Assembly (NCBI GenBank): GCA_025765595.1
Contig: JAIVFH010000056.1
Location: forward strand, 169,745-233,744
DNA from: Obelidium mucronatum
Taxonomy: Eukaryota; Chytridiomycota; Chytridiomycetes; Chytridiales; Chytriomycetaceae
Direction: 5' to 3'
Length of the DNA stretch: 64,000 nucleotides
Position numbers and translations under genes: made by a program. Positions 1 through 49,251 of the stretch are shown here, in pieces (position 1 is the stretch's first letter; each line of letters begins with the position of its first letter). Below the pieces are notes generated by a model. The model was not told the origin of the DNA and did no database searches. It saw only the letters and a list, made by a program, of their open reading frames with translations.

Positions 1-419
1 TCTCCTCGCCATGAAGAAAATCATGTTGAAATTTGTTCGTGGGATTAATCACATAAGCGTGAATTGCCACGACGCTGAACGGTCTCGCGTGTTTGAAGTT
101 ATTGCCATGCATTTTGAGAGGAATATGTTGCATACTGTAAGTTATATATATATATATTATATATTTTTTCTTGTTGTTTTTCCACGGGGGGTTCTTGGAT
201 GTGTAATGCTTACAGTTCCGCCCACTTGATTCCTAGCAATACTCTGTGCAATTCTGGTCCGTGTTCTTGCCGCCGCTTCCAGCTGAAATCCAAATATCAG
301 ATTCGAAACCGGGATTAATCGCGTACATCAATCAACTACAAGAAAACTTGCAGCAGCTTCCTTCTCTTGCAGCGGCAGGAGATATTGTTTTGGAATTCTG
401 TAATACCCTGGTGAGTTCC

Positions 420-456
<37 letters not shown>

Positions 457-710
457 GGAGCCATCCAAGAAAAAAAAATAACGTCTCATCTGATCCGTTT
501 TTTAAAAACAAAAAAAAATAGAAACTTGCATTTGGAAACCAAAGCACAGAGGCATTTTTCCGTATTGGCTATTGTCTAAACAAACTGTTTGTCGCAACGA
601 GTCTTCAAGATCGAGCACAGCTGTTGCGATATTTCAACGGATTAAGGGAGGCGCAGTTGGATGATGTGGATGATTTGGTGACAAGGGCTGAAGAGATTAC
701 GTTGAAATAA
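1..710 (+). CDS. bZIP-family protein, C-terminal part only (5' end outside window)
   Basis: Only the 3' exons are present: up to 136, 237-410 and 522-710, all joined in phase 0, ending in TAA. No basic region is visible because the window starts inside the gene. I assign it to the bZIP family because its three exons match, in order and in length, the last exons of the two bZIP genes at 739 and 3434. The first exon holds a helix around RSRVFEVIAMHFE, the second a WSVFLPPL segment, and the last, of 63 codons, ends in a charged helix (DDVDDLVTRAEEITLK). The second intron carries a pure T tract of about 30 nt at 421-450. The next bZIP gene starts 29 nt downstream. The splice model is well supported by frame; the function of the helical region is unknown. 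Confidence 0.7.
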
Positions 711-738
711 TAATAATAAAAAACAGACTTGGAATAAA

Positions 739-2140
739 ATGGAATCAACGCCGTCGGCACCACAAACAAAGAGAGGCAGGAAACCAACAGCAACAACAGG
801 AAATGATCCAAACTCAAAACGGGCGATGCAATTGCGAGAAGCCCAGCGCATGCACCAGCAGCGAAAGGCGCAATACGTGAAAGACTTGGAACAGCGAGTC
901 CATGAGCTCATGAACGAAAACAAGGAACTCAAGTATTTGAAGGAGAAGGTAGAGCAACTTGAGCTTGATTGCCACCTGCTGAAGAGCAAGAATCCTGCGA
1001 TCCAAAGCTTGCTATCGACTGCTGTTAGTAGCAACCGCACGTGCGATTCTTGTCACACAAATATGATAAAGCTTCAGACTCAATTGGATGCCGCCAACAG
1101 GAAATGCAACGAATTGCAATCGAAGCTTGATCAGAGCCGGGTTCAAGATGATCTCTTTGGGTGGACGGAATCCATCTTTACTGGTTCTTCAGCAATCACG
1201 ATACCCCCTCCACTGCCACCACTGTCGATCAGCAAACAATCTCCAGATAATGATTATATTATGGATGACCTGGATTCCTTCTTGAACGGGATCAGGCCTC
1301 GTTTGATATCTGCAGAAGAAATCTTTGGGCCTTGCGATGTGGAACTCCTGCGACTCTCTTTGAAACTTATACCATCTCTTTCGGAGTCTGAATTAATTGA
1401 TTCTTTGATGGATTTGATTACAGTTGAGTGTTATTTGGCTCTGTATCTGACGCTTTTTTTTTTGTAACCGAACCTTTACCCAGGCACATACTCAAAGTAC
1501 AGATCTAATCACATCAAAACGAATCATACTCAAGAGAGTAAGGATTATGGGACAGTTATTCCAAAGATGTGCCATTTCAGAACGAGCCCAGTTTTTCAAT
1601 GCGATTTCTAGTCAAGTGGAAAGGAATATCAATCATGTCGTTGAGTAGCCCACACACGCCCACCTTATGCAACGCACATCTTGCTAAAGCATTAAATATA
1701 AATTTTCTCACAAGTAGAAATACTTGGTTCAAGTGTGGTCTTCCTATTTGCCGCATCGCACTCTGGGGTCTTCGCCAACATTTCGAATCTACGGCGCCTC
1801 TCCAGATCCCAAAAAGTACCACCCAGATTCATCATCTCATTCCGCCATTCTTGACGAAACGAAACTCCCACTTCTTCTTCGTACCTGTCTCCAACAATTC
1901 AAATCCCTCCAGGATTACCAGGACCTTGTTGAGGAATTTGTGTATAGCTTGACCAAAGGGATCGACAGGGATGACCCTGAGACTTTGTTTCGCGTGAATT
2001 TAAGTGTGGGGAAACTTGCGGTTGCGGCTAATGTAGCGGATCGTGCGGATTTGTTGATGCTGGTCCATGAGATTCGGGATGGGCATCAAGATATTGTGGA
2101 GGAAATGATTGCGAAAGCTCAAGAATTGACGCTGGCTTGA
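739..2140 (+). CDS. bZIP transcription factor, array 1, gene 2
   Basis: Predicted nuclear DNA-binding factor of 419 residues. Exons: 739-1422, 1484-1636, 1718-2140, all phase 0. The basic region is at residues 27-47 (AMQLREAQRMHQQRKAQY) and runs straight into a leucine zipper at about 50-85. The layout is that of fungal AP-1/Pap1-like factors, but the near-invariant Asn of NxxAQxxFR is Leu here and the Phe is His. A low-complexity middle follows (TIPPPLPPLSIS), then a short motif (SAEEIFGPCDVELLRLSLKLIPS) that gene 3 of this array also has (SEQLFGPMDIESTRRDLKLLPS). The rest is an all-helical C-terminal region shared with its neighbours. Compared with the neighbours it lacks the last intron. 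DNA target and partners cannot be told from sequence. Confidence 0.82.
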
Positions 2141-2216
2141 AAAAAGCTACTATAGTCCGTACGGTGAAGGGAGGAATAAACACTAATTTTACAGTGTAAT
2201 GAAGCTCACTGACATC

Positions 2217-2271
2217 GCTCTTGTGGGATCTTGTGGCTTAGTTAGTCAAAGCGCCAGTCTCATAATCCGAA
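2217..2271 (+). pseudogene. tRNA-Met 5' half fragment with repeated 5' end
   Basis: Bases 2227-2271 match the 5' half of the intact tRNA-Met(CAT) gene at 10941-11014 with four differences, including the D arm and the anticodon loop CTCATAA. The match stops just after the anticodon arm; no T arm or acceptor partner follows. Immediately upstream, 2217-2226 (GCTCTTGTGG) repeats the first ten bases of the tRNA. It is not a functional tRNA gene. It could be a retrotransposition scar or a tRNA-derived small RNA locus. Confidence 0.75.
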
Positions 2272-2465
2272 AAGAGTAGACATACTGTAGCGTTGCAGCT
2301 ACTTTTCTTCGTTTGGTGTTGGTTGCAAATTTTCATTCTTAAATTTCGGCCCAGAATAAGCCCATCGATACAACATTATGGAACAAAGTTTATTTTTTCA
2401 CACTTCAGTTCTGCCAGCAAATCAAAAACCATGAAAACTCTGATCCAAAAAGAAAATAAAAGAAA

Positions 2466-2992
2466 TCACTGGATGTTAATCTTCTTGACTCCTTCATCCA
2501 AAGCCTTCTTCAAAAGAGTCAGCTCAAGAACACCATGGTCCATGGTGGCAGTAACTGCGTCAGCATTGGCATCATTGGGAAGGCGAACACTTCGAGAGAA
2601 TTTTCCAAAAGAGCGTTCAATAACATGGCGCTGGTTGTCTTTGGTGTCCTTTTTGGTGTTGCGTTCTCCAGAGATGGTCAAGATGTTGTCCTTGATTGTA
2701 ATGTTGACTTCATCCTGTAACAGCAAAGAGTGTGGTGTCAGCAAAACCAATGGTGGTGGAAACAAAAGTAATATTTTACCTTTTTCACACCGGGAAGGTC
2801 AGCATGTACAATGTACCCTTTCTCGTTTTCAGTCAAGTCCAAACGCGCGTTGAAGGAACCACCCCAGTACTTTGAGGAAATCTGGTTCGCATCTTCCGTG
2901 TTTGACTCGGAAGAAGTCATGGCGTTGAGTTGGGCATTCAAGAGGCGATCAAAGTCGCGGAAGAGAGAGTCGCGTGGTAAGAACACAGCCAT
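2466..2992 (-). CDS. small heat-shock protein, HSP20/alpha-crystallin family
   Basis: ATP-independent chaperone of 152 residues, expected in the cytosol as oligomers that hold unfolding proteins. Exons: 2992-2780 and 2714-2466. The alpha-crystallin domain spans about residues 50-145: ARLDLTENEKGYIVHADLPG at its start, ITIKDNILTISGER in the middle, and the hallmark G-V-L of the last strand (MDHGVLELTLLKK). The tail ends in KKINIQ, which gives the I-x-I motif used for oligomer contacts. Length is typical of the family. The start was chosen at MAVFLPRD; upstream sequence in the same frame lacks family features. It lies head-to-tail against bZIP gene 2 and diverges from bZIP gene 3. No clear heat-shock element array was identified by eye. 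Confidence 0.93.
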
Positions 2993-3433
2993 TTTAATCG
3001 TTGGTATTTGGTTTTTGGAGGTTTTTTTTATCAAATGCTTGCGTCTCCGAACCGCCAGAGGTGAGGCGCTTTTATACTTTTTTGATTTGTAATTGAATAC
3101 AGATTAAATCATGCTTCGCTGAGTGTGAAAGTAGATTCGCGAAATTTCTAGGGTTTTCGATCGGATTCTATGTGTTGCACAAGATATTCCGTGAGAGTTT
3201 CCACTGTACCGTAATTGATAACTAAAGAAGCACTTAATTGATGGTGTTCTTTGACTCAAATCTTCGAAGACAACGTGGTTTGGGGTATACTGATGGGGTG
3301 TTTCATCAAAATGCTGGAAAATATGCATAAAGTATGGTTCTTTCCTCAAACATGTATTATGCATATATATAGCATGCTTTGGAAGGAAGGCTTGAGAATC
3401 TGACACTGGGAGCTCTTTGAAACGTGGAAAATC

Positions 3434-4784
3434 ATGTCAGAAGAAGGAGTGTCCCCAGCATCAACAGTCGCCGCTGCGCCATTCCCACCAGCACCAGCAT
3501 ACAATCCACACAGCGGCCGAGGCAGAAAGAGGACATTGGATGAGCCCATCTCGAAGAGAAGCGGTCAAATGAGAGAGGCCCAAAGAGCGCACAGAGAACG
3601 CAAGAAGAACTATCTGTTTGATCTCGAGAGAAAAGCAAAGGAGCTGGAGACTGTAAAACAAAGGGTTTCGGAGTTGGAGCTGGAACTGGCAAAGACAATT
3701 CATGGTGTTGGTGCCAAATCAACCCTAGCTCCTTGCATTCACTGCGCCACGGAGCAGTTTAAAACTTCTCTCTGTATGGATCAAGTGAAGGTGTTGGAGA
3801 AGCAGGTTGTTGATTTGAAGCTGGAGGCTGAAGTTTGGAAGGCAAGAGCACTGGGGGTTGCAGCACACACGCCAGTGCTGCCCATTATTTCGTCACCTAG
3901 TATTGGTACATTTGTACTGGATCAATCTCCGGCTGCTTCAGTTTCCGAAGGATCTATGTCCATGGATTCATCCACTTTCATGAACCAATCCATGGTTCCA
4001 TCAGAACAGCTATTTGGTCCGATGGATATTGAATCGACTCGACGAGATTTGAAACTTTTGCCCTCCCTGACGGGTTTGACTGTCGCAGATGATATTGTGA
4101 ATATGGCCATTGCTCAAACCAAAGTTGACCATGTTGGTCAAGTGAAGAGAATGTTCTTCAATATGATTCGGTTGGTTCTTGAAGCTGTCGTTTGAAGTTA
4201 GTTGACTCGAATTTGGTTCTTCAGGCTGTTGAATGAGCTATTTGATTCATGTTCGGTTCTTGATCGTGCAAAAGCTGCTGAAATTGTTGCAAAGTGTATG
4301 CAGGGAAATTCTCATCACTTGGTTTGTTAGAAACCATCACACAATGTGTGTCATATCTAATCGTTTGGTTAAAGCGATACATCACAAATTCATGGGCAGG
4401 ACTCTTGCAGGAATCATCGACCCCTCGCCAGCCTTGCGCCAACAAAGCAAATAGTCGAGGGTTTAACTTGCTGCGCTCTTCGCTTCTTTCAATACCTTCT
4501 CTAGCAAACGCCCAGGATCAAATTGATGAGTTCTGCCAGATCTTTGTATGTGTAGTTCTTTGTCCTATTGACTTACTGACTTACTGTCCGTTCAGACACA
4601 CGCTCTGGAGGAGCAGGACCCTGACGGTTTCTTCCGCGTTCATGTGGCAATTTCAAATTTGGAAGCTCTCCTCGTGTCCGTTGAAGAAAGGACGAGGTTT
4701 TTTTCCGCCTTTGAAGTAGCGAGGGAGGGAAACCGAAAGGATATGGAAACTTTGATCCAGAAAGTTGAACAAACTGCTTTGTAA
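3434..4784 (+). CDS. bZIP transcription factor, array 1, gene 3
   Basis: Predicted DNA-binding factor of 397 residues. Exons: 3434-4170, 4225-4321, 4375-4545, 4596-4784. The basic region is at residues 41-59 (KRSGQMREAQRAHRERKKNY), with a short zipper behind it. As in gene 2, the usual invariant Asn is replaced (Met here) and the Phe is His. A region with two Cys (PCIHCATEQF) sits just after the zipper; gene 2 has a similar TCDSCHTNM. The C-terminal helical region is cut into exons whose lengths match the first gene of the window (57 versus 58 codons, then 63 and 63). The third exon start at 4375 was chosen because it restores RYITNSWAGLL, which aligns with KYLVQVWSSYL of gene 2. It ends 16 nt from the convergent carboxypeptidase gene. 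Confidence 0.82.
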
Positions 4785-4799
4785 AATCTCATTTTTTTC

Positions 4800-6980
4800 T
4801 TACAGCAACATACATACGATCAGTAAATAGTAATAAAACGCGGTTGTAGATATGGAGATTGAAGGATATGTTGAGGATGTTGTTTGCATTTTACGTTGAT
4901 GGTTAAACCATTCATTCATTGATACACCTTCTACATCCACTTTACTGGAAGAAGCAGGTAGCAGTAGCTCTTTTAGAATTGCAGATCCACTGACTGGCTT
5001 ATCCTGTTTTTTGTTTTGTTTATGATAAGCTCAGACAGTATTGTTGATAATTGACTCACAGATGCCACCATATGCCCAGCGCCCGCTACACGAACGTCTA
5101 TTCGAATCATAAGATATTTCCAGTATCAGATTATGCTGGATATTCAGACTTACATGTCAAACCCCTTTCCGACCAATAGCGGCCAGCCACTGCATCATTT
5201 ACCTTCCAATCGACACCACGTTCATCCTTAAACCCAGTACTTCCTCCCCACGTTAAATTTGAGAGCAGAGCTTCAGTTCCAACGTAGTTCAGAATGAAGT
5301 CGCGGTCGCCATTAAACATCAAAATCTTGATTCCCTGCTCCAACAGTCCGGGAAAAAACTAAAAACATGGCAATTGTTTAATACAAGCTACAAAAGTATA
5401 TTTAACGTACTGTATCAGCAGATGGTCCGTACTTTCTGTCATTTTGCACTTTTATAGTGATATCTCGGCATTGTTTCCATTTGTACCATGGCTCGGAATC
5501 AATTAACGGTGGGTCCACATGAACAGCGAGTCTAACTTCCTCCGACTAGTCAAATAGTTGAGTTGCTACTGAGCATACCAGGTTTGCGTGTCTTACATTC
5601 AAATATTCAGTTAATCGCGAATTCCTTAAATAGAACTGATCCGTTTCCCAACAGGGAATCTCATAATCAATGTTATACAAATCCAAGCAAACAGCTTTTG
5701 AATCTCCTGCTCCTTCTTCTTGATCCACCATGTCTTGACGACCCCGCCTTGATTTTTGAAACCAGTCATTCGCCAGTTTCGCTGCATCGCATTTAAAAGG
5801 CAACTTTGCCACATCTTTGAACGATTTGACATGGAGGCAAGCTACTTCGACTCTGTTCATCCATTCTCTTCCCTCTATTGAATACTTGAAGATGTCCGTT
5901 CCTCGCAAATATGAAAACTTGTCAATCATGGCTTGAGGATAGTCAATTTGTGAAACATAGTTTATGAGGCCGTTTCCAATTCCAATTCCTTTTAAGTTGA
6001 GCTGTTTTGGAGGGATTCAGAGATGGAATACTTAAAAGAGATGTCAAACCGGAGTCACGCCATCAATCAAAGTTTTACAAAGACTTATTGCTGTACTCAT
6101 GTATGGTATGTAAATGCCAGCGTATGACTCCCCTGTAATATAGAGGTTCCACTTCTTCGCCAATGGAAATAGGTTATAGAATCCATTCAAAAAAACAACA
6201 AATTGAGCCGCAACCTTATCGAAACACTTTTAGAACATAAAAAAGTGCATTTTGATTTCATTACTTGGTATTCTGTAAACGGCCCCCTATCCGATTTGTA
6301 GTTGAAACTGAATCCCACACCAAGTGGTTGTTCAAGATACAAAAGGTTTGCTTGATGATGCCAGCTGTTTGGATTTATTCCTATCGTTCCATCTGCGTTC
6401 ATTGTAATTGGTCCGTTCTCTTCGAAGCTGCCAAATAGAGATGAGCTGAGGCAAAAGTTTGTCAGCTACGGCAAGGTTCGAATCTGGAATCCATACCACC
6501 CTGGACCTGATCGTGCAACGAAGGTTTCAGTTATGGTCATATAACGTAGATATCGGTTGTGTGTGTTGTTGAATGGTAGGATCTGGCAAGACAAAAGTTA
6601 CAACTAACCGCCATTCAGCCATATAACCAAATCAGTCGACTGTATATCCGATGAAGGAAAATACCTTTCAGAAACGAAGTTGATTTAATGGAACTTCCCC
6701 GACTTTAGTTGGCTCACCAGAAAAATAACGAGTTGTCGGCTGATATGCCGCCACCGTCTGCAGCGATCGGAATAAACCCAGCATATTGTCCGTTGAGTGA
6801 GGATTCCAGCTCAGCTGTTTGATTGGGTAAAGATGTAACTTTATAGCGGCTCGCGTCCAGTGTATTGGGAGGTAGACTATCGGGACACGTGAAAGATAAA
6901 GGAGATTCTTCGGCGGAACTTGATACAACAGAAACAGACAAGCAGATTACAATCCAAAGGATGAGGGCTTCAGAATACAT
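4800..6980 (-). CDS. secreted serine carboxypeptidase (peptidase family S10)
   Basis: Removes C-terminal residues from peptides in the secretory pathway, vacuole or outside the cell. Model of 559 residues in ten exons: 6980-6718, 6664-6609, 6506-6497, 6445-6265, 6214-6050, 6001-5579, 5545-5411, 5358-5154, 5097-5060, 5003-4800. The reading frame closes exactly. An N-terminal signal peptide (MYSEALILWIVICLSVSVVS) is clear. Family motifs in order: WLNGGPGCSSL (oxyanion loop), PLGVGFSF, catalytic Ser in GESYAG, catalytic Asp in FNGDRDFI, and catalytic His in AGAGHMV. The third exon is only 10 nt and encodes part of GGPGC. The C terminus ends in a hydrophobic stretch (AFYYYLLIVCMLL), which suggests a GPI or membrane anchor. 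Intron choices at 6497/6506 are the least certain. Confidence 0.9.
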
Positions 6981-7187
6981 CCCTCTCCTTTTTCCTCCCT
7001 CTAAATAATTGATCGCGATTGGAGTAGGCCCAATCCGGATGCTTTTTTTTGTGAGATTTGCAAAACATGATCATCGCTACGGTTCGAAAGCCAGATTCCA
7101 ATAATAAAGACGAAAGTAGAGCAATCTCATCATATGAATCTAATGCGTCGCACCATTTTCAGAAGTATATAATATATGATATCATGT

Positions 7188-8892
7188 TCATGCAGGGATA
7201 AAACCTGCAGCACCCTTTTTCACATCTTCCAATTCAACAATTTCTGCTTGACTCGACGAAGACTCAGACCCAGTTTCCATTTTCCACAGATGCCTAAACG
7301 CAACTCCAAATCCTAGAGATACCACCAACAGTCCCACCCCGATCCAAAACGTAGCGGCATATCCTTTCATTAAATTTTCATCACTATTGCTACCAAGATC
7401 GCTTCCGTTAGATAATGACGTAGTAACAGCTCCAGCAACCGTGAACTCAACAGCGATTCCAACACCATATCCCAACTGAACAACTGTATTCAAGACCCCT
7501 CCGGCGAAACTACGATGCTCCACACTCACCGAACTCATAAGCAGAATATTAAAAAAGTTAAAAACAACATCGAATCCAAGAACTATAAAGCAGAGGGCTG
7601 GAAATGCTAGTGCCCAATAGGATATGTTTCCGTTCACAAAAGCATAAAGGACACAGGCAAGAATCATGCTGACGTGGCCGAAGATAAGAAACGGCAAAGG
7701 GTATGGATATTTCGTGGCAAGATATCCAGTTGCCGTTGCAGTAGTGAATCCGACGACCATCATGGGAATGAGGTGGACCGCTGTCATTACAGTGCTTAAG
7801 TGGTAAATGTTGAGGAGAGCGAGGTTTGCAAAGACCGCGAACCCATTGAATGCAAAGAGCACCAAGAACGTCATCAACAAAAGTAGCGTTGTTTGCGGAT
7901 TAAAGAAGCTGGATGGCACCAGAGGGTTCTGGACTTTGCGCTCCCAATAGAGAAAGAGAGCTGCTCCGACAAACGACAAGAGTAGCGGCGATAAAATTTG
8001 AGGAGTCGACCAGCCTTCCTCTGTTCCGGCGCTGTAACCATATTTAGTCAATTCAACCACCAACGATGCACTCACGTAATGGCGTAAATGAATAGAATCA
8101 ACGATCCTGTCGACAAGACAGCGCCCAGATAATCCATATTTTTAGCAACATTCAATGCATCGTCTCGTTTCACGGGCTTATCTGCTGGCAACACGACAGC
8201 TCCAAGAATGAGAACAAGTAATGTCAACCCAGCGTAAAGAAAGAACACAGCCCTCCACCCTAGTGACTCTCCGATAGTTCCGCAGACGAACAGACCGCAA
8301 ATAAAGCCTAGTGGCGAAGCAGCACCAAACTGGGACAAGGCAATATTCCGTTCTTTGGGGTCATCAAAAAGATCTGTTATCGCACCAACGGCACTTGGAA
8401 TATTGGCTGCGGCACCCATTCCCTGAAGAGCACGAGCAAATATTAAGTGGTTTGTTGTCGGGGCAAACCTGGACAGAGTATTAGTAATCAAACTTGATTT
8501 CAAATGGGATCCCATAAGTCACAGTCACATACCCACAGTAGACTGACGCCAGGGTCAGCCAAGCCATTCCAATCAAAAAACCTTTCTTTTTTCCAAACAG
8601 GTCAGTCAGTCTGCCAAATAGCAGGAGCAATCCACCAAACGTCAAACTGAAACAAGTAGAAAGTGGTTTAACATAACGTCAGATTGAAACTTGACTCATG
8701 GAGTTCGCAACTTCAAAAGCCGATTCATTCTTACTTATAGGCAGATAGGATCCACTGTGACTCGCTGGGGCTAGCTTTGAGCGAGTCTGTTATGATGGGA
8801 AGGATGATGACCAGAATCAGAAACACATCAAGGAACTGAGCCATGCAAAGCACTAGATGGCACCATCGCTTGTTGGTTCGAGATTGTGTCAT
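7188..8892 (-). CDS. major facilitator transporter, DHA2-type drug:H+ antiporter
   Basis: Plasma-membrane or vacuolar exporter of 502 residues. Exons: 8892-8735, 8646-8533, 8468-8076, 8031-7188. Many hydrophobic helices run through the whole protein, as expected for the 14-helix DHA2 group. The loop between helices 2 and 3 carries motif A (GRLTDLFGKKKGF), and helix 5 a motif C-like GAASPLGFICG. It starts at MTQSRTNKR, directly before the first helix; an in-frame ATG 87 nt upstream would only add a polar tail. The C terminus is short, acidic and serine-rich. The substrate cannot be told; DHA2 proteins export drugs, siderophores, amino acids or polyamines. It ends 208 nt from the start of the carboxypeptidase gene. 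Confidence 0.9.
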
Positions 8893-9011
8893 CAATGTCC
8901 AAATCAAGCCCTCAAAATCCTCCAAACGTTTTGAATTCGATTCAAATTCGATTTTTGAATGTATATTTATGAGAAACAAAACGAGAAAAGAGACAAAGAA
9001 GAAAACAGAAA

Positions 9012-10767
9012 TTAAAGCATGGAAATCAGGGATCCAACGATCACAGCAAACAATCCGGCAAACAAGCTTTCAGTGGCACCTGAAGTCTTTTTGGGAGTTG
9101 TCGAAGTACCAGTGCCTGTGGCAACAACATTATTGAATGGACTCTTTGTGTTTTTCTTGAAGTAGTCACTCATCCACAAAGCGGAATTCTTGACTTGTCT
9201 CTTCAAGCTACCAGTATCCAAGTTCACTTTTCCGTTTCCACTTGGGTCCCAATAATCAACAGCAATATGACCCCATCGGAATTCATATGTGTAAAATTCA
9301 TAGTTATCAATCAATGACCATGCCAACACAGCTGTCAAGGGCACTCCGTCCTCAACCACGGAAGCAATCACTTGTGGTGCATTCAACTTCCAGAAATCAA
9401 CACGCAGTGTGTCATTAACTGCTTGAGCAAAGTTGGTTTCCAACGCTCTTGGAACATGGTATCCCAATTCAGCAATCACAATCTCCTTTCCATATCGCTT
9501 GTAAAGAAAGTTGGGCAGCGCTCGTGCTCCTTCGGGGCGAGGATGTGGCCAATAGGGCATGTTGAAGTGGAATTGATAGTCATCAATTTCTTGGGCAGGG
9601 TAGGCGGCGTCCTCCCCGATTGGGTTTGGTGGCAAGTCGTTAGTGAACGAGCTGTAAATGTTGACGGCAACGTAGTCACAGGTTCCGTTGATGAGAGCAG
9701 ATTGCGCTGCTGTAAATTTGGGGATGAGAGGACGTGCGGTTTTAATTCCCGGTCCGTAGTCTCCTGTCATGCAAGGGTCAAAGTACCTGTATTGGTAGTG
9801 TATGTCAGTAAGTATAGACAAATTTTTTAATGCGTCCTACCATTCTGCTTGACGAATATGCGAAGCATCTTCAGTTGCGGTGGGGCTGGTAGGAGCTGGA
9901 TCGGGATCATGCCATTCCATAATGGATGGAAGAGAAAACTTCCACTTGTCACCACCAGGCATCTTTCTAGCAGCCTTTACAACAGTCGCATGTGCAATAA
10001 TAGAGTTGTGCATGCACTGATAATACAACTCATCCGAAGTCGTTGTGAAGGGTGCAAACTGAGGACGATGCATACAGAAATCACAGTTGGCACGGGGCTC
10101 GTTGAGCGTAAGCCAATAGTTGACTTTGGATCCAAAGTTTGTGAGTAGAACTTGAGCGTAGTTTGCAAAAGCGTCAATAATCTGAGGGCTTTGAAACCCT
10201 CCGAACTGGTCCTGGCAGGCTGGCAAAAAATATCAACCTGGATGTCAAGTCAATTTGTGGGATAGAATGGCTTACATTGCGGCAAATCCCAGTGAAACAT
10301 CGTCAGGAACGGCTCTGCACCCTGGTTTCGAACCTCATCAATCATGTCGTTGTAATACTTGATTCCTGCCTGGTTAACGGCACCAGTACATCCAGGAAGG
10401 ATGCGAGACCAAGCAACAGAGAATCTGTAGGCCGTAGCTCCGAGCTGCCCCAAGTAAGCAAGATCTTGTTTAGTTTGATTGTAGTGATTAGCAGCTCTGT
10501 AAGGAGTGCCGTGGGTAGGGTAAGCCGCCTTGTTGAGGTAAGCGTCTGATGGAGGAGTTAGTAAGCTTGGAGCGATGATTTCTGTGTTTTTGTGAGTGTG
10601 ACGTACGATCGAAGACAGAAGGACTCTTCCCATCCAAGTTCCAGCCTCCTTCCATCTGCATCGCAGCTGTAGCAAAAGTGGAAGGTAAGTCCAATAGTCT
10701 ACGGATACATTCCGAGTCTCTTACATCCTCCGAAACCCCATGCAATAGGGGCTGGTTGTACTGCCAT
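9012..10767 (-). CDS. beta-glucosidase, glycoside hydrolase family 1
   Basis: Hydrolyses beta-glucosides or related sugars, probably in plant-material or cellobiose use. Model of 508 residues, exons 10767-10725, 10666-10607, 10545-10276, 10219-9841, 9786-9012. The family landmarks are in order: QMEGGWNLDGKSPSVFD near the N terminus, FSVAWSRILPG, FHWDLPQ, acid/base Glu in LTLNEPRAN, and the nucleophile Glu in IVIAELGYHV. The usual ENG around the nucleophile is ELG. The protein ends in a Ser/Thr-rich linker and a hydrophobic tail (LFAGLFAVIVGSLISML) that looks like a GPI or tail anchor, yet the N terminus (MAVQPAPIAWGFGG) has no signal peptide. Either an upstream signal exon was missed or the protein is tail-anchored. 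Confidence 0.9.
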
Positions 10768-38400: not shown

Positions 38401-39150
38401 AAAGTGTGTGGTTTACCACCCCGCGTTTCAGAAAACCAAGCGGTAGCGTCACATGCAAAGCTGTGTTTTTCGTCTCTTTTGCGGCAGTTGAGATGAAGAA
38501 GCGTCGTTTGCTTTGGTTCAAGTCGCTGACGCTGGAAAACGGCAAAATATAGTCCCGTTCTTAAAAATAAACCATTCTCTTTCGAAAGCATCAATCATAC
38601 CAAAGCTCTATCGCTACGTGCTGCGCCTGGTAAAATTCCAATGAAACGAATTTACGAATCAGATACAGCAAAGGACGTATTTTTTTTTGCTCGGTTTTCG
38701 ACATACCACTCCAACGAATATTTGCAAGATGAGATACGGTTGGATCAAGTATGCTGAGTTTTTTTTTTTTTTGTGTCGATTTAAAAAATGAGGGGGTTGC
38801 GTTGAATCCCCCATCCCAAAATTAAAAAAGCGTTTTTTTGCAGACCTGATTGTTTGTCGTCCTTTGGAAGCTGTAGTTTCCCCGTCTTTTCACACGAAAA
38901 GCAATATCCTTTGACGTCCTTTTTCGTATTCTTTCCTGGCAAACTGCTTATTATGGATCTTGAGGTTGGAGATGGGGGGGAGAGGGAGGTGGTGTTGTTT
39001 GTTTTTGAGTCGGTTGTCCAAACAAAAACGCGTTTTTATATTTTACCCTCCAATTCAACATGGCGGCGCTAGGAGCTGCCCTGACAGCTGAAGACTTCAA
39101 ACGATGGTCCACCCTTTTTTTTGTGGGTTGTTGTTGCGGTTAGATCGATC
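35483..39150 (-). CDS. CFAP20-domain-containing protein (CFAP20DC-like)
   Basis: Probable ciliary/axonemal protein, fitting a fungus with flagellated zoospores. Well-supported exons: up to 38846, then 38753-38707, 38626-38601, 38531-38420, 38319-38260, 38212-38089, 38033-37690, 37613-37422, 37377-37106, 37046-36960, 36903-35604, 35542-35483; frames close at every join. The CFAP20-like domain reads LQLPKDDKQS, LIQPYLILQIFVG, VSDLNQSKRRFFISTAAKE, HVTLPLGFLKRG, WLNLCFDLLSLV, FKGQTFRCLDSIALSG, FRLRKVFTMK. The long rest is Ser/Pro-rich, with a Gln run and an acidic end (DETLELMFDAETNSYFDP). The first exon(s) at about 38850-39150 show CFAP20-like pieces (GGPSFEVFSCQG) in shifting frames next to homopolymers, so the N terminus is unresolved. 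Confidence 0.75.
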
Positions 39151-39542
39151 AGAGTTTTGTTTCGCGGTTCAACCTGAAAGGCAGACTTGAACATTTTTTA
39201 TTTATTTTGGCTTTATTTCATTTCGCACATTAGCATGCTCCTTTGGGGGAAAAAGAAGGGTCTGTTTGGCATCAAAAGGGATATTCCGAATTTCCTTTGA
39301 TCAGGTCGCAAGACGACAAAAGGATATGGGCTACGCTTTGGTCCGACAGGCAGATGTAAACAACGGGGTTCATTGAGAACTTATCATGACCATATGTCTG
39401 CCCTGACGTGTCTTAATGAATCCGAATATCCTTCAATCCATCTATAGTGGCGGTAGGGCTCCCCTGGATAAACTAGACGCGATGTGCGATAACCGTAGAC
39501 GGAATGATTTCGAAAACGAACTTAGAAGAAGAAAAAAAGGAA
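39151..39542. other. intergenic, nothing recognised
   Basis: Spacer between the 5' end of the CFAP20-domain gene and the 3' end of the palmitoyltransferase gene. I see only short open frames and no RNA or repeat. Confidence 0.5.
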
Positions 39543-41026
39543 TCACAAGTTTCTTTTTGACTTTAAATCAACCAGCGGCATATCATCATCATCCACATCG
39601 CCGTCCGTGTCGCTGTCACTGCTTCTGCTACTGTCTGATGATTCCTTGTGTCTTTGCGCTTGAAAAGGAGTCTTGGAATCACGGACAATGTATCCCTCGC
39701 TTCCTCTTCTCACGATCCTTCGTCGCTGGTATTTATTCTGATGTTGCTGCTGGTGGTTTGATTCGTTGAGTAGGTGCTGTCTGTTTGTTGTGCCTTCATC
39801 TACATCTTCGTCATCATCATCGTCATCCGTGCTCTCAATCAACCGGTTTCTTGCAGATTCCGTTCCTTCCTCAATAGCCCTCCGAGACGGTGACCGATCC
39901 AATCGTGATGAAGAGCGATACCCGTGGCTTCTTGAACCGACAGGAATCCGACCCGCCTTGTAATCATAATACTCTTCTGGCGGCCACGACAAATCCAAAC
40001 CATCTTTCAAAGCTTCCGCCAACAATTCAGGGTTGATTGGGAAAGAGAGTCCATCTCCCGCCGCCGCCATAGAGACGCCACCAGGGACCCACCAAAACAG
40101 AATCCAAGGTCCCAAAACCGTCTTGATGTTGGCGATGGATGAACCTAAGTCGTATGGGTACCGCGCGTTTGAGTTAATGATTCCCTTTTTGACGAGTTGT
40201 TCGATTTTATCGTTTTCCAAGGATTCGATTGTTGTAGTGTTGCATGCTACGTAGTACAGTTGCCAGAGAGAGAGGATCCCGACACTTAGGAGGAGGATAA
40301 AGAGAGTGAGGATGTTGAGGATCATGACGACAAGAGTGAGGTTGTTTGGGGGTGGGGTGTAAAAACGGTCAAAGTTTGGGCGTTGGTATAGTGTTGGGGA
40401 TTGGGAAATGATGAGGTGGCGGAGGTAGAGGCCAAAGAGGAAGAGGCAGTACGAAGAGGAGAAGCCGACAGAGAGAGTGAATCGCAAAAAGTGACCGTGA
40501 TTGTAAAAACCGACGCAGTTATTTAGCCAGGGACCTAATCAAGTAATAGTCGCTGTCAGCCATTGTTTTTGGTTCCCACACTTGCTTGACACTCGGTCGA
40601 TACATTAAAAGAAAAGAGGCCGCTTGAAACAACACTTACAATGGTGATCCATTTTTAAAACACAAGTTCGGCATTCGGAGCAATGATGTGTTCGTGGAGC
40701 TTTAAAGGCATTGCACTTTCGGCAGAATCGAAGGCCCCCAGACGACTTTTTGCGCTCAACTAAGGACACAGCGGATTGATGTAATGGATGGTATCCGATA
40801 GGAACACTTCCTGGGGGTGTTTTGCAGGCAAGAAAGTAGTTGACCCAAATGAAAGGACGCCAATGTTGTATGGAGCCAACAGGAGCAGCCGCTCTATTCG
40901 CAGCCGTGGGTTGAAGCTGAGCCATGGATATAGGACAAAGTACTGGCTGGTGAGCGGCACTGCTGTGATCAGAAACACAGTGAAGCCAACAGCGACATAG
41001 TCCAAGAAATGCGAGTTTTTCCCCAT
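39543..41026 (-). CDS. DHHC palmitoyltransferase, Pfa4-like, with one-base frameshift
   Basis: Attaches palmitate to Cys of target proteins at the ER. Exons 41026-40640 and 40534-39543. Two transmembrane helices open the protein ([26 protein letters not shown]). The zinc-binding DHHC domain reads [27 protein letters not shown], then across the intron [15 protein letters not shown]; the catalytic Cys is kept. Two more helices follow, then a long acidic tail. The N-terminal frame breaks near 40852 (NIGVL then [15 protein letters not shown] in another frame). Total exon length is one base short of a multiple of three, so a single missing base in the short A run there restores 459 residues. Sequencing error or recent mutation are both possible. 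Confidence 0.85.
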
Positions 41027-41198
41027 TGTTTGTAAACACTCTGCTTGAGACACATTCTCGATCCAAACCCAGTCCTCGAATTCACAATTCACAATTCACA
41101 GTGACTCACGCCCACCAGTCTCCGTTGGTATCGCAATTTTTCCGCACTCACTGTCACTGGGTTCAACCAAACAAACTGAAAACAATTCAACAAACAAA

Positions 41199-42627
41199 AT
41201 GACTGAACACACAAGCGACAAACACAACGACGACAAAGACGGCCGCCGCCTCGCGCAGAACCGCCGCGCGCAGCAGGCGTATCGCCAGCGCAGAGAGGCG
41301 CTGGTCGCCGGCCTCGAGGCGCGGGTCGCTTTGTTGACGCAGGCGGCGCAGGACTCAAAGCGGCTGATTGGCGGCCTGGGCGCAAAAGTCGCGCAGCTGG
41401 AGCTCGAAAACGCGCTGCTGAAAGAGGCGCTGGGCGCAACTGCGACTGCGACTTCAACTCCACCTACATCAACCCCCGTCGGCCTGCTGAACCAGATCCC
41501 TGACTGGGACTGGCTGTCGCTGTATCTGGCAAACATCCCTCCACCAGCGGCTGGCCACCCCCGCAGCGACGGGGGCAGCGATTCCACCCTCATGAACTCT
41601 GAAGCCGCTGTGCAACTGCCGCTCCCGGATACCACGCATCCGATCTCACTCGATATGTTTCAATCAGTTATCAATCAATTGAAATCCATCCAACATCTTG
41701 AGGATTGCAATACAGTCAACGAGTTTTTCCGGCTCTTTGTGGTACCTGTACCTGTCATGTGAATCAACTACCACAGTTATTGAAACCACACATGTATATA
41801 TCCAGGCTCAATCTAAAGAAACCAACTTGGAACGAATCAAAAATGAAATTATTGCTTTGACTGATGTTCGTTACAAGATTTTGGATAAAGCTGAAATTCG
41901 GGATAGGCCTCGCGTTATTTCTATTCTTCAAACTGTCTGGGATCAGCATCCTGATCATGTGGTGAGGTATACCGCCGCCGGCGGTGGTTCTTTTTCTTAT
42001 TCTGCCTCTTCTTTCTTCCCTTTCTCCTAAGTTCTTCTAGACTACACCACTCAATGCCAATCCCATACTCATTTTGCTTAGAAACGAATGAACGATGTAA
42101 TTGACGCTCTGGGAGCCAGACAGCATGCAAAACGGCTACTACAACCATTCCTGCGAATGAATCCAAATACAATCCATGCAGATGTGAGCTGGTTCCGGAT
42201 AGGGGCTGGACATATCGAGTCCCTAAAGAGTCAAGAAGCTGTCGAGGTTGTGAATCAATTGTGTGATTGCTTTTTGCAGCAAATCAATCTGGTCGATCCG
42301 ACAGAGCAGCGGGAAGGGTTCATGCGCATGTTGCAACTTCAAAATCGGATTTATTCATTGTGTGTGAGTAGTGAGGAACGGAATTTGGTGAGTTGGTAAC
42401 ATGTAGTGCGGAATGAATTGAGCGGAATTCCCCTTCCTATTGTTCCACCTTATGTTGACTCAACTTCCTTCAATCCTTCATTTTTAAGTTTTCTTTAGCA
42501 TTGGATATCGGACGCGAACATAACAAGAACCAAGTTGTAAGTGAATTTTCCCTTTTTTCCCCCAATTTTTTCTCATGTTGCAATGGTCCTACAGAATGAT
42601 ATGCTCAGCAGCCTTATTTTGACGTGA
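41199..42627 (+). CDS. bZIP transcription factor, array 2, gene 1
   Basis: Predicted DNA-binding factor of 361 residues, exons 41199-41741, 41806-41961, 42082-42387, 42489-42536, 42595-42627. The basic region is almost at the N terminus (residues 16-33, RRLAQNRRAQQAYRQRRE), with the AP-1-like NxxAQxxYR core intact, followed by a zipper (about 36-75). A Pro/Thr-rich linker leads to the shared helical C-terminal region, including EIRDRPRVISILQTVW, SWFRIGAGHIESLKSQEAVE and the last exons ALDIGREHNKNQV and NDMLSSLILT. The first ~300 bp are very GC-rich, unlike the rest of the gene. It diverges from the palmitoyltransferase gene across about 170 bp, so the two may share a promoter region. Confidence 0.85.
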
Positions 42628-42853
42628 TAAATTGTTTGTTATTATTCGATTATTTGATTGTTATTATTCGATTATTTGATTTTAATTAGTAAAGTAATAG
42701 AGTTCAATGTAATTTGTCTTTTTTTTTTTTTGACTGAATAAGCATTTCAGTGACTCACATAAGTAGTGACTCACATTGACACACCCACCATCCAAAGTGT
42801 CCCAACTGAGAAAAAAAACCTATTCAAAAAAAATCCTACCAAATATCGGCCAA

Positions 42854-44397
42854 ATGTCAAGCAAAGACGACAACATTATACCCCGACGGCGGAGAAACAG
42901 GGAATCCTCGGACTCTGAAGACTACCCCGAAAACACCAACAAGAACAACAACAATCATGATGATCACCACCTTGCATCCAGTACCAGCTCTTCAACCTCG
43001 AATTCCAAATCCATTTCAGTTAAACGGCAAGAACAAAACCGACGCGCACAGCAAGCCTACAGACAGCGACGTGAAGATCAGATTGCGCAATTGCAATTGA
43101 AAATAACAAACTTGGAAACGGAGCGGCGACGGACGAATGGGTTGATTCAGAGTCTACAGCAAAAAGTACAGCTATTGGAAACAGAAAATGGGGCCTTGAG
43201 GCAAGGCTTGGTGGTTGTGTTTCCACAGACTCCAGATGATTCGGTTGGTTCTAGTGCTAGCGGTCATGGTGGTACGACTGCTGCTACTACTACTGCTGGG
43301 AGTTCTACAGAGTCTTTAAGTCAGGCGGGCCGCAGCAACGGCGAAAGATACCTACCCATAGACACATTGTTTGGGAATATACCTGGTTGGAGTCAAGACT
43401 CGTTGGAAGCAGATTTGGGGGTGGGGCTTCCAGATCCGGCGACGGGTTCTTGGGGGACTATATTCTCTCGATTCCCAATCGCAACCGCCAGTTTACCTGT
43501 ACCAGAATTCGACGAAACTAAATCTCTATTGCGGAATACTTTACCTGCTCTTGCGTCGTGTCGGGCTGTAGACTTATTCTTTGAGTTGCTCAAGGTGAAA
43601 CATTGTTTGAAAGTTTACCGATCTGTAAAAGCTGAATGAATACTTTTTTTTTGGTTTGGGTGATGTAGAAGCAAGTAGCTGAAATCGAAGTCGAAGTGAT
43701 CAAAACAAACATTGTGGAGACGAGTATACTCTGGTTTCAAATCCTTGACGGCGTTGAAATCCGCGATCGACTGAAAGTGATTGAGATTATGAGAACAGTG
43801 AATGAGTGGAGAGCGACGCAAGTCGAGCGTATAAAATACCTTGTGGAGAACGAAACCATGGACGGCAAGAGCAAGGATACCGAAAAGCGGTGGAATGATT
43901 TGGTTGTAGTGAATGTGCAGTTGTTCCGAATCGCAGTGTCGCATATCGCGTCGCTCAAGACTCCTGAAGCTGTTTTGATTGTTGAGGAATTATGTGAATT
44001 GTTTTTGGTGAGGTGGGGGGTGGGGCAGTGTGTTGATTGTTTGTCGAGACTAATCAAAAGGACTGTACAGAATATTCTATGTTTGAAGGAAAAAGAGGAT
44101 CGTCGAAACTTGTTTGTGAAGCTTACGTCCCTACACGGAAAGCTGTATTCCTTTTGCAGGAGCGAAGAAGACAAAAATCTTGTAAGAGAAACTTCGTCAA
44201 GATGAACGTTCTTGTTTTCGACTGACATGTTTCTTTCGTATCAAAAAAAATACAGTTGACACTCGCCAGTGATATTGCTAGAGAGAGGAATAAAACGCAT
44301 GTCGTAAGTGGTGTTCTTTTGTTACTTCTTTCAATGCCTTTTGAAAAAAACCCCATGTATCTTATAGATGGAAATGTTTTCCTCTCTGACAATTTAA
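42854..44397 (+). CDS. bZIP transcription factor, array 2, gene 2
   Basis: Protein of 422 residues, exons 42854-43594, 43669-44007, 44071-44181, 44256-44303, 44368-44397. After a polar, Asn/Ser-rich start, the basic region lies at residues 57-74 (RQEQNRRAQQAYRQRRED) and the zipper at about 77-120. The C-terminal helical region contains EIRDRLKVIEIMRTV, LFRIAVSHIASLKTPEAV and LHGKLYSFCRSEEDKN; the last two small exons encode LASDIARERNKTHV and MEMFSSLTI. The 63-nt intron at 44008-44070 leaves the frame open if retained; splicing is inferred from the paralogues at 45230 and 47784. The 48-nt penultimate exon has the same length in all four full members. Confidence 0.85.
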
Positions 44398-44610
44398 ATA
44401 AATTCGTAATTTATTATTGTACTTCCCGCTTGTCCGTAGTGTTATGTTCTTCCTCTGTCTTCTCCAGGGCAAAAAGCAAAGATGAAAACTTGAGTATTTA
44501 AAATCAAGCTGTTCGATTGGAGATAACCGGATCGAAATATAATTGGTGCGACTCACATGCCAGTACCAAGTTTTATTAATGAATTGCCAGAAGCGACACA
44601 ACTGCAAACT

Positions 44611-45051
44611 TTGAATCCTTGCAAAACGGAGTATGGAAGATTGAGTCGCTCAAGACCTCTGAAGCGTGGATAATCGTGGACGCTATTTGTGACGGATTTT
44701 TGGTTGGTTGAAACGCCAACCACAAATATAACATCAGTTTCACGTGCTAGAAGTTTAAATTAATAGATTAAATTTCTAGAGAATGCTGAATATGGAAGAT
44801 TTAATGATGCTTTCCTCAGAATATAAGCGCTGGAAGGGCAGTTGTACAAACAATGCAAAACCGTGGACCTTATTGATTTTGTGAGTTCTTCTTTTAGCTT
44901 TCTGACGGTACACGCGCGCGACAAAGTTATCGATCGGCATTGGTCGAGAACAAGCCCCAAACGTAAGAACAAAATAACGCGTTTCCCTCAAGTATTTTCA
45001 TTGAAATGATACATTTTTCTTGAACAGAATCAAATGTTCGAGTCTCTTTGA
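44611..45051 (+). pseudogene. degenerate bZIP-family C-terminal copy
   Basis: Recognisable pieces of the array-2 C-terminal region occur in the right order without any bZIP domain: IESLKTSEAWIIVDAICDGF (compare SLQTPEAAAIVEELCDGF), then ALEGQLYKQCKTVDLI, then SIGIGREQAPN, then NQMFESL and a stop. An in-frame TAA breaks the second piece and no start or DNA-binding part is present. It sits between intact genes 2 and 3 of the array, as expected for a dying tandem duplicate. Confidence 0.7.
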
Positions 45052-45229
45052 GCGCATATATCTAAAAAGAAGACTGGATGAGTAAGAAAGCAGTGACACA
45101 GAGTGACTAATTCCCCCTTACGTAATAGCGGTTGCTCCAAAAACAGATCAAAAAAAATCTCGAGAACAAGTGGACTTCACGCTTTTTTTTTCTCCCCTTT
45201 CCTTCACCTTGTTTGGTTTTTGGTTTGTG

Positions 45230-46843
45230 ATGGACTCTCGAGCTTCATCGTCGCCAGCGGCCGGAAAGCGGAGACGGAGCAACAGCGGTGCCAGTACTAC
45301 CACCGACCACAGCCGCAATGAAGCCCCTGGAGACATAACCGATGAAGCGATCGCTAAGCAAAGAGCAGAGCATCGCGCGATGCAGAACCGACGGGCCCAG
45401 CTCGCCCACCGACAGAGGCGGCAGGCCTATGTGTTTGGACTGCAAAACCGAGTTCTTGAGCTGGAGCAAGAAGTGAGGGAATCAACCGAGACAATGAATC
45501 GGCTGAAAAATCGGATTAGTGTGTTGGAGAGAGAGAATAGGGATTTGAAGCAGAATGGAGGTGGTGCTGTTACTCTCGACCTTCAGACAGCAGAAACCCC
45601 ACCGGTTTCCATCGATAATTCTAGCACTTCTATAAATACTGCTAGTAATTCTTCTAGTCATAGCGGTAGTAATAGCTCGCTGGCTTCGTCGGCTGTATTT
45701 TGGGATAATATGTTGATGGGTTTTGGCAGTGGAATCAATTGGCAGCCCCTTCCATCAATGAATCCGACAATCGACAATCAGTCTCTGGGAATTTTGCCGG
45801 GACTAGGAACGATACCTTTGCCTCCTTCTTCAGTATCGACAATTGCTTCATCTTCAACGTTTACTCCCACACCTTCACCTTTCCTACTTGCTCCATCAGC
45901 GCCTTCTCTCGACGAAGTAAAATTTAGATTGAGGAAGTATATTCCAAGTCTGGAAGCATGTTCAGCGGTGGATTCTTATTTTCAAGTTGCGGCGGTGCGC
46001 GTGTAACTCTTTTTCCCAATCACTTCATTTTTTTATTATTGCGGCAACTTATTCCAGTGCAAATTTCCCCCCTCAATATTACTATAGAAGTTGACCATGG
46101 AGTCCAATTTAGAAGAACTAAAGCTAGACATTATCCGGTCAAGCATTTTATGGTTTACAATCCTGGATGCATGTGCAGAGATCCGAGATCGCCCGAAAGC
46201 AGTGGAGATTATGCAGCCTGTCTTGGATCTTATGCTGGAGCAAGTGGTAAAGTTAAAACCCCCCCCTATTTTTTGGTTTGAGTTTCTTAAAGACTGCTTT
46301 TTTTCTCTTCAGGATCGAATCAAGGAACACATAACAGTAACCAGTCCAGCGGCGGGAACCAGCACAACGGATGCCAATGCGGACTTATTTAGAAACGCGA
46401 TATCTCATATTGAGTCGTTGAATTCATTGGAATCGTTTCTTGCCGTTGAAGAGTTGTGTGACGCGTTTGTGGTAAGTTGCAATATCTTTGGGTACAATTA
46501 TTTTAATGTGTTCCAAAAAAAAATCACGTAGATTCAATTTAATTTGAGCTCTATAGAAGACCTGAGGTTGGCCTTCTTGCGTACAAAAGTGATTCAAGGG
46601 CGGTTGTATAAACTATGCAAGAGTTTCGAGGATCGAAAGCTTGTTCGTACAAGACAAGAATCTTTCTTTTTTTTTCGCTAAATCCCGCTCCATCTTGCTT
46701 TTAGCTGACACTGGCTCTTGATATCTGGCGGGAGCGCAACAAGGAGCAAGTGGTATTATTCTAAACCTTATTTTTTTCCCCAAACATAATTCAATAACCT
46801 AAAAACACACTAGAAAACCATGCTAAATAAGCTAATTGTATAA
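45230..46843 (+). CDS. bZIP transcription factor, array 2, gene 3
   Basis: Protein of 423 residues, exons 45230-45994, 46088-46246, 46313-46471, 46532-46642, 46705-46752, 46814-46843; all frames close. Basic region at about residues 47-63 (AMQNRRAQLAHRQRRQAY), zipper at about 68-110. The usual aromatic residue is His here but the Asn is kept. A Ser-rich linker follows. The helical region shows EIRDRPKAVEIMQPVLDLM, LFRNAISHIESLNSLESF and RLYKLCKSFEDRK; the end is LALDIWRERNKEQV plus KTMLNKLIV. The start is ATG in MDSRASSS; the upstream in-frame stretch is hydrophobic and probably leader. Confidence 0.85.
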
Positions 46844-47089
46844 AAAGAGAGAATCAGAATTAAAGTTATTTTTCAACACATGCAGTGAACGAGGAATTTT
46901 ACTGCATTTACTATAATCCAACTTACATATAGATTAAAGTTACTAATGTGTTTGCTCATGGGGACTTGGGAGCTGAATAATCTCTGACTCGGAATGAGTT
47001 GGTGTGACATCCAATAGAAAAATTGAACTCTTAGTCGGGTCAAAAAAGCCGGCCAGCGCCAGAAAACGAAGAAAAAAAATAGCCATAAA

Positions 47090-47593
47090 ATGCAACAACA
47101 ACCCAGCCAAGTCGGAACACCTCAGTCAAACAACGTCAAATACGAGAACTTTAACCATTTCAAACACCACAAAGTATCCATAAGAAGAGCCGAGCAAAAC
47201 AGGAAGGCACAGCAGGCATTCCGCGAAAGGAGACAAGCAGTCCTTGACTCTCTCCGACGGCAAGTGGAGCTTCTGGAACAACAAGATCAACAGCTAAAGT
47301 TGGTCAGGCAGCAGTTGGAATATCGTATTGTGACCCTTGAGCTTGAAAACAATTCGCTGAAGCAAGCTCTCAGCATGCGTGGCTGTACCTCTGGTACCTT
47401 TGGCTTTCCACCAGCTTTATCCCCTGGATTCCCGCAGAAGGAAGCGAGTTATCTAGCATTGTTGGGGGACGTGAACTGGCCGGAGCAGCCACCACAGCCA
47501 GCATTTGGTCCTTCGCCATCAATAGCCATAAACTATCAAGATTCAATGAATTTGTGGGTCGGCCAGCAAGCGCGTGCAGATCCGAATGGTTGA
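47090..47593 (+). CDS. short bZIP protein, array 2, gene 4
   Basis: Single-exon protein of 167 residues. The basic region is at about residues 33-51 (RRAEQNRKAQQAFRERRQAV), with the core NxxAQxxFR intact, then a zipper to about 100. It ends after a Pro-rich tail. The helical C-terminal region found in every other member of this array is absent, and none of its exons can be found in the 190 bp before the next gene. It could dimerise and bind DNA without the activity carried by that region, but this is inference. Confidence 0.82.
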   Translation: MQQQPSQVGTPQSNNVKYENFNHFKHHKVSIRRAEQNRKAQQAFRERRQAVLDSLRRQVELLEQQDQQLKLVRQQLEYRIVTLELENNSLKQALSMRGCTSGTFGFPPALSPGFPQKEASYLALLGDVNWPEQPPQPAFGPSPSIAINYQDSMNLWVGQQARADPNG

Positions 47594-47783
47594 TGGTCAT
47601 TTGTGTTTATTAGATCATCTTGTGTACCTGTTATTCCCCTCTCTGTATAATAAAGCATCATATATTTCCTGAGCCATGTTACTATCTAAACTTCAGATTG
47701 AAAATCCCTTTTGTGGGACATACTGGTTTTATGCATAATGTCGCGATTTTGTTTCAAAGCGATCGGTACAACACTCAAATTCA

Positions 47784-49251
47784 ATGCCATTCACTCAACG
47801 AGGAGCTCCCCGACGGCCACGAGGCAACAACAGCGGAGTCTCAGAAAAGAGGGCCGAAACCAACCGCAAGTCCCAACAGGCTTTCCGGGAGAGAAGGAGG
47901 GAGTTGATTGCAAATCTAGAGACTCGGGTTGGCCAACTGCAGGAAGAGAAGGTGCACTCGCGGACCATAATGGCGCAGCTCCAGCAGCAGTTGCTGGTGC
48001 TGGAGTGTGAAAATGCCGTGTTGAAGCAGGCGGCACATACTGGTCAATACATGGAGACAAACAGTGCCGGTGTGGGGATATCCTCGTTGTCTTCGCCTTA
48101 CTCTGATTTATCGAGTCTCTCTATGATGGGGCTACTGCCAGCAGCTTGTGGGGTTGATGAAATGCGTGTGACCAACAATGCCGGATCTTTGTATCGAGTG
48201 GCGACTCCAGTTTTGAATTCATCAACTTCCGTCCTTTCTCCAACCATATCGAATTGGAACGCAATAAGCAACCCGTCTGATTCTATTGCGGATAAATATG
48301 CAAACCTCGTTGTTACTTTTCTGGAATCGATAAAATCCCAGTTGCGTGAGAGTATTCCATCTCTTCAATCCTGTGAAGCCTTGGACAAGTTCGCAGATTT
48401 ATTCCAGGTACCTACTTTTAGTTTGTTAAATCCATTACCTTCAGATCCCTGACTTAAATTCTCTATACAATTACATTTCAATTGAAATAATTAAGCGGCA
48501 AGCCTTGGAATCCGATTTCGAAGCAACCAAATTGAACATCATCAAGATCAGCAACTTGTGGTTTGTCATTCTGGATCATATTGCGATTCCAGATCGGCCT
48601 CGTGCGATAGAGATTCTGCGGATCGCCTTAGAGTTGAAGTATAATCATGTTGTAAGTTCTCCTGCCTAATATTCATTTTCTCAAGTTTAAGTAACTCTTT
48701 TTTTTCAATTTTAAGGAACATTTAAAGAGGCAACTGGAGCTGGAGGGGGGAGACGCTGTTGTTGAAGCCAAAGCAGCAACGAAAAATTTCTCCGAAGGTG
48801 CAAACGTGTTTCGGGTGGGTGTATCTCATATTCCGTCGCTTCAAACGCCTGAAGCCGCGGCGATTGTGGAAGAATTGTGTGACGGATTCCTGGTAAAAAC
48901 AACACGAAGGAAACTCACGATAAAAGCCTAACCCTCACTCTTTAGATCTTACGAGATCAAACAGATGCTAGCAAAAAAAGAGAACTGATTATGCGTTTGA
49001 TGCTGCTTCAGAGTCGGTTAAATTCCATGTGTCAAACTGATGAAGATCGAAATCATGTAAATTGCCCTGATTCAAGCGAAACGAAAATATTAATTGCGAT
49101 GCCTTGACAGCTGGCTTTGGTGATTGACATAGGACGCGAGCGCAACAAAGAAGAAGTGGTTGGTGCTATTTATTGTGCTGTATTGAGCTCACAACTCGTT
49201 TTTTCTTTCAAAATTTAGAACCAAATGTTCAGTTCTCTTTCTGTAAGCTGA
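47784..49251 (+). CDS. bZIP transcription factor, array 2, gene 5
   Basis: Protein of 382 residues, exons 47784-48407, 48496-48651, 48716-48892, 48946-49056, 49111-49158, 49219-49251. Basic region at about residues 20-39 (EKRAETNRKSQQAFRERRRE); here the Ala of NxxAQ is Ser. Zipper to about 85. The helical region shows IPDRPRAIEILRIALEL, VFRVGVSHIPSLQTPEAAA and RLNSMCQTDEDRN; it ends with LALVIDIGRERNKEEV and NQMFSSLSVS. Exon lengths 111 and 48 nt are identical to those of genes 2 and 3 of this array, which supports the splice model. Confidence 0.85.

Follow-up and report, generated by a model that had tools for sequence, protein, structure and literature searches.

Two diverged tandem arrays of bZIP genes near a contig-end telomere in Obelidium mucronatum belong to a larger clustered family with a duplicated C-terminal domain

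We analysed the final 64 kb (C56:169745-233744; hereafter the window) of a 233,744-base contig from Obelidium mucronatum, a chytrid in the family Chytriomycetaceae (assembly 48.3 Mb, 694 contigs), where genes for basic leucine zipper (bZIP) proteins lie in two tandem arrays. A preliminary description of this DNA had reported eight bZIP loci plus one relic in the two arrays, all on the plus strand and close to a telomere. Our analysis confirms the loci and their orientation and shows that array 1 extends upstream of the window. Telomeric TTAGGG repeats, read in the sequence (63907-63996, no strand assigned), end the contig 14.7 kb past gene H, the last array gene. In a full-length member, the N-terminal bZIP is followed by a linker that varies and then by a C-terminal domain (CTD) roughly 200 residues long.

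Array 1 comprises four genes (A0, A, B and C) and a bZIP fragment; of these, B and C lie wholly inside the window, and A reaches into it with its 3' part (1-710), which contributes CTD exons only. The bZIP segment of A lies at C56:169014, 731 bases before the window starts, and is preceded by gene A0 (C56:167427) and the bZIP-only fragment (C56:166985). Gene B (739-2140; 420 aa, 3 exons) and gene C (3434-4784; 397 aa, 4 exons) each encode a bZIP, a CxxC motif and a CTD, and an HSP20 gene is located between them on the minus strand. Array 2 comprises five bZIP genes and the relic. Genes D (41199-42627; 361 aa, 5 exons), E (42854-44397; 422 aa, 5 exons), F (45230-46843; 423 aa, 6 exons; closest to Siphonaria HDU68_012244) and H (47784-49251; 382 aa, 6 exons) encode a bZIP and a CTD. 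Gene G (47090-47593; 167 aa, one exon) encodes a bZIP without a CTD, and its frame is open in both haplotypes. The relic (about 44583-45050, the part beyond 44708 read by eye) retains remains of CTD exons; no bZIP was found in it, and it is present on the second haplotype too (C563:1098).

The introns in the gene models are of the GT-AG type and keep the reading frame, and the model of B, spliced by hand, is identical to the deposited O. mucronatum protein BDR26DRAFT_866721. Pfam bZIP_1 matched all seven window proteins scanned (E ≤ 0.0011), four of them above the curated cut-off of 27.6 bits (B 34.2, D 32.5, F 30.6, G 28.8) and three below it (E 25.6, H 25.8, C 19.5 bits). The CTD, present in the array genes except G, drew no Pfam match in these seven proteins, the bZIP being the only domain recognised with confidence. 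We show that the CTD consists of a pair of homologous modules, each about 85 residues long. In a single comparison, the profiles of module 1 and module 2 (19 sequences) aligned with an hhalign probability of 98.7% (E = 3e-16), and control comparisons of the module profiles with a bZIP profile gave 0.3% and 1.1%. Gene structure shows the same repetition: the introns of F and H fall at matching places in both modules, following an FxLF- or LCDxF-like motif and again where the module ends, all in phase 0, with D and E retaining part of this set and array 1 having some places in common. Two AlphaFold models predict a helical CTD with a similar series of helices in either module.

Contigs of a second haplotype exist in the assembly. 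Two were identified by alignment, namely C563 (96.2% identical to array 2 over 10 kb, from a point inside E through H) and C337 (91.7% identical to array 1 over 7 kb), and C430, C507, C588 and C669 were judged to be such only from paired hits. Their existence favours a reading of the array copies as assembly artefacts from unmerged haplotypes. However, the proteins of array 1 share 28-56% identity with one another and those of array 2 33-37%, far below the 92-96% DNA identity between haplotypes; the copies are therefore not assembly duplicates, and we consider an artefact extremely improbable. Gene D had no second copy among the loci read. Only one recent duplication was detected in either array, a tandem copy of about 430 bp (90% identical) on C56 at A0; this copy was not found in C337.

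Phylogenetic analysis was based on 42 rows (39 models from the O. mucronatum genome and three from Siphonaria and Rhizoclosmatium), with G and the relic outside the tree. Array 1 formed one clade (99/93) inside a group with rows from C105, C13 and C5 (100/99). Array 2 likewise formed one clade (100/100), which included Siphonaria HDU68_012244 beside F (100/93; 45% protein identity). Among the 39 own-genome models, every array member thus has its nearest kin inside its own array, in line with the preliminary description. Support was weak at several deep forks (9 of the 39 inner branches were drawn open), and long branches led to four C7 rows. Forcing both arrays together was rejected by the approximately unbiased (AU) test (p = 1.2 × 10−47), so the arrays are not sisters and the idea of both as one expansion fails. 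An Obelidium-only array 2 clade was weakly rejected (AU p = 0.038), and HDU68_012244 nests beside F, so some of array 2 is probably older than the separation of Obelidium and Siphonaria. Judged by within-array identities of 28-56% and by the Siphonaria protein nested in array 2, the arrays are old. The expansion had been suggested to be rapid, a view supported neither by the strong divergence of the members, whose end branches measure 0.43-0.97 changes per column, nor by the probable age of part of array 2.

The divergence of the arrays, and hence their age, would also fit ordinary old fungal bZIPs that lie together by chance, each with a one-to-one orthologue elsewhere. The close Siphonaria relative of F is in line with this, as is the pairing of C105:57357 with Siphonaria HDU68_008362 (100/100). 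Yet the array members group together, save for HDU68_012244 joining F, and, among the matches listed in protein searches whose sensitivity was limited, relatives that align over the CTD belonged solely to Chytriomycetaceae (Siphonaria, Rhizoclosmatium), the one other match, from Friedmanniomyces, covering 10% of the query (E = 5e-4). We regard such a chance assembly of old genes as improbable. Within the limits of these searches, the CTD matches support the proposed lineage-specific expansion at the level of Chytriomycetaceae. One Rhizoclosmatium hyalinum entry (P0004, 760 aa) has a diverged first part followed by a copy 98% identical to P0006, and we read it as two adjoining genes apparently fused in one model.

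Both arrays are outlying parts of a far larger family. Leaving aside the second-haplotype contigs C563 and C337, we recovered 84 bZIP loci, at least two of them fragments, when the stretches read were scanned with a spliced profile at a threshold of 30 bits. This number is a floor, since C7 was covered only at 85-95, 165-225, 250-260 and 265-325 kb and three loci with Pfam bZIP matches (C4, C294, C571) fall below the threshold. Control scans of 60 kb of shuffled and 60 kb of reversed sequence, one strand each, gave no match reaching 25 bits in an initial run that used scan windows of slightly smaller length. Evidence of a CTD was found in 55 of the 84 loci. Contig C7 (574 kb) holds 58 of the 84, grouped as 3 at 87-91 kb, 19 at 171-217 kb, 6 at 250-258 kb and 30 at 265-315 kb. 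Because these 58 loci lie at least 87 kb from the ends of C7, telomere proximity does not explain the family, with the proviso that contig ends need not be chromosome ends. The preliminary description missed this larger clustered family, along with the two-module CTD and the divergence of the basic regions. Outside the scanned stretches, further bZIP- or CTD-like matches were noticed at C56:149749, C43:151264 and C7:522916.

The basic regions vary at positions that contact DNA in known bZIP structures, the invariant Asn and Arg. Of 79 readable loci, 53 retain the Asn and 26 have lost it (two of the 26 being fragments; five further loci are unreadable at this position), the replacements being V in six, L in five, I in four, T and Q in two each, and seven other residues once each. 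The Arg is kept in 72 of 79 and lost in seven. Array 2 (D to H) keeps both residues. All of array 1 (A0, A, B, C) is without the Asn: the basic region of B, QLREAQRMHQQRK, has L for Asn and Q for Arg, and that of C, QMREAQRAHRERK, has Met for Asn. The Gln that follows the conserved Ala (NxxAQ) is found in 68 of 79 readable loci. The earlier label of AP-1-like factors suits array 2, whose basic regions are of the NxxAQ type (H has S for A), but array 1, without the invariant Asn, is not canonical AP-1. We also noticed, by eye and with our own profile, four uninterrupted frames with two bZIP-like segments each, at L013:1-930, 3624-4490 and 6730-7461 (minus strand; C7 at about 285.0-292.5 kb) and at L025:1722-2498 (minus strand; C89). 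Their first segment has Gln and their second Arg at the place of the invariant Arg. With Pfam bZIP_1, one of the four frames shows two matching stretches and each of the other three a single one, the second segment.

The loss of invariant residues could be taken as a sign of decay, in which duplicates drift into pseudogenes and have no regulatory role. The relic and the bZIP-only gene in array 2, the bZIP fragment in array 1, and an in-frame stop in the first exon of gene A on this haplotype are all compatible with such drift. Comparison of the haplotypes speaks against it: allelic dN/dS is 0.09-0.37 in seven of the eight genes compared (B 0.17, G 0.16), values that rest on 3.5-39 nonsynonymous differences per gene. 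Moreover, the frame of A is open on the other haplotype (C337), and B, F and H are modelled without stops on both. Decay of the arrays as a whole is thus unlikely in our judgement. The A0 pair (C56:167427 versus C337:9424) may not be simple alleles, because its dS is 0.34 compared with 0.03-0.10 in the other seven pairs.

Taken together, we consider it likely, if well short of certain, that each array is an old tandem subfamily in a family of fungal AP-1 (Yap/Pap1)-type bZIP regulators belonging to Chytriomycetaceae. These regulators would dimerise, their basic regions have diverged, and their CTD would sense a signal or recruit a partner. The description of the family is the part in which we place high confidence. 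The sequences support dimerisation of the putative regulators and, for array 2, DNA binding. How members pair, which DNA they target, what the CTD does and which roles B and G play we infer in a working scheme, which we offer tentatively and hold at somewhat less than even odds. The clusters of the family, of which C7 carries the largest, probably arose for the most part through tandem duplication, with basic regions diverging meanwhile. In the working scheme, the zippers would pair members as homo- or heterodimers; members with both Asn and Arg (array 2) would bind Yap-like sites, and those without them (array 1, above all B) would have a changed specificity or act as non-binding partners. 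G, lacking the CTD, might be an unregulated or competing partner, and the CTD, with its three Cys-rich columns, would sense a signal or recruit a co-factor.

The cysteines allow a more specific alternative, a redox or zinc switch in which the CxxC pairs of a dimer meet past the zipper and, by holding a metal ion or through disulphide bonds, set the activity of the CTD. Fungal AP-1 factors are redox sensors. CxxC occurs in 19 of 42 linkers versus 2.6 expected from shuffled linkers; in array 1 it is present in the models of A0, B and C and also in the frame of A. Both AlphaFold models have a break behind the zipper, followed by a predicted helix that carries the CxxC at its beginning (P0003 residue 102; P0006 residue 140), and three CTD columns carry Cys in 38 of 42, 31 of 41 and 26 of 39 sequences. 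However, the array 2 proteins have no CxxC and none of the cysteines is invariant. Furthermore, the Cys-rich C-terminal domain of Pap1 had no Pfam match at E ≤ 5 in the seven window proteins, at the sequence level. A switch of this kind is possible but rather doubtful.

Several of our observations weigh against the reading of the arrays as regulators with a sensing or recruiting CTD. Models of 29 of the 84 loci are without the CTD. The AlphaFold models derive from 15-row alignments (mean pLDDT 71 and 70, pTM 0.35 and 0.47), and comparison of their CTD fold with solved structures gave nothing above noise. A sensor role for the CTD is consequently a guess. The conserved CTD cysteines may be no more than residues buried in the core, the module 1 Cys is missing from D, E and H, and the absence of CxxC from array 2 counts here as well. 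Regarding selection, gene E has a dN/dS of 0.59 between haplotypes in a partial comparison, A (271 residues) and C (210) were compared in part, D was not compared, and A carries its stop. Lastly, agreement with deposited annotation extends to the model of B alone.

The closest analogue to our family is the expanded set of Asn-substituted bZIPs in Phytophthora sojae, for which 71 bZIP candidates, tandem clusters and classes with the basic-region Asn replaced have been reported, together with transcriptional shifts at the zoosporangium, zoospore, cyst and infection stages (PMC4046829). The likeness thus extends to tandem clusters, Asn-replaced classes and a zoospore-forming organism. P. sojae is an oomycete and not a fungus, however, and the resemblance would be convergent. 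The replacements also differ, being "such as cysteine" in P. sojae and V, L, I, T, Q, M and others in Obelidium, and the parts of that report used here describe no counterpart of the duplicated helical CTD (PMC4046829). In Obelidium, unlike in P. sojae, most bZIP loci read are on one contig. Given the stage-related shifts in P. sojae, stage-specific use of the Obelidium arrays is a fair guess rather than a finding. The stress or developmental role that the preliminary description had raised is a putative one. A phylogenomic count places a 3.25-fold rise in bZIP number in the ancestor of chytrids and derived fungi; neither arrays nor a CTD are described in the portion of that study drawn on here (PMC10406608).

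Among solved structures, Pap1 (1gd2) is the best sequence match (E = 1.6e-12), and the NxxAQ Gln noted above is a further likeness to Yap1/Pap1. The Obelidium family differs in having another, duplicated CTD with no listed match to the Pap1 Cys-rich domain, and array 1 differs also in having no Asn. Plant TGA (group D) bZIPs carry a C-terminal DOG1 domain and resemble our proteins in placing a helical C-terminal domain after the bZIP; the listed match to TGA7 (8gyz) involves the bZIP part only, and no DOG1 match was among those listed by Pfam for the seven window proteins. The comparison of CTD folds gave no signal over noise for this kinship.

A broader interpretation, to which we give limited credence, is that Chytriomycetaceae have evolved a regulator class of their own, in which AP-1-type bZIPs joined to a duplicated helical sensor-like domain occur in clusters by the dozen, zippers and the residues that read DNA diversify, DNA-blind members tune the others, and the combinatorial repertoire of dimers would be convergent with that of oomycetes. 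Fungal transcription factor genes are usually scattered. With at least 84 bZIP loci, a domain unknown to Pfam, and an Asn that was lost repeatedly, the family offers a system for asking how bZIP specificity and dimer networks diversify. It also raises the question of whether chytrids and oomycetes, unrelated lineages that both form zoospores, followed a common path.

Other features flank the arrays. Upstream of array 1, long direct repeats occupy C56:160.0-164.7 kb (L001:1-4700), and one stretch of C337 matches them many times. Between array 2 and the telomere lie a gene for a leucine-rich-repeat protein (53597-54772) and five tRNA genes (59251-63083), and a run of 35 C is found at 51541-51575.

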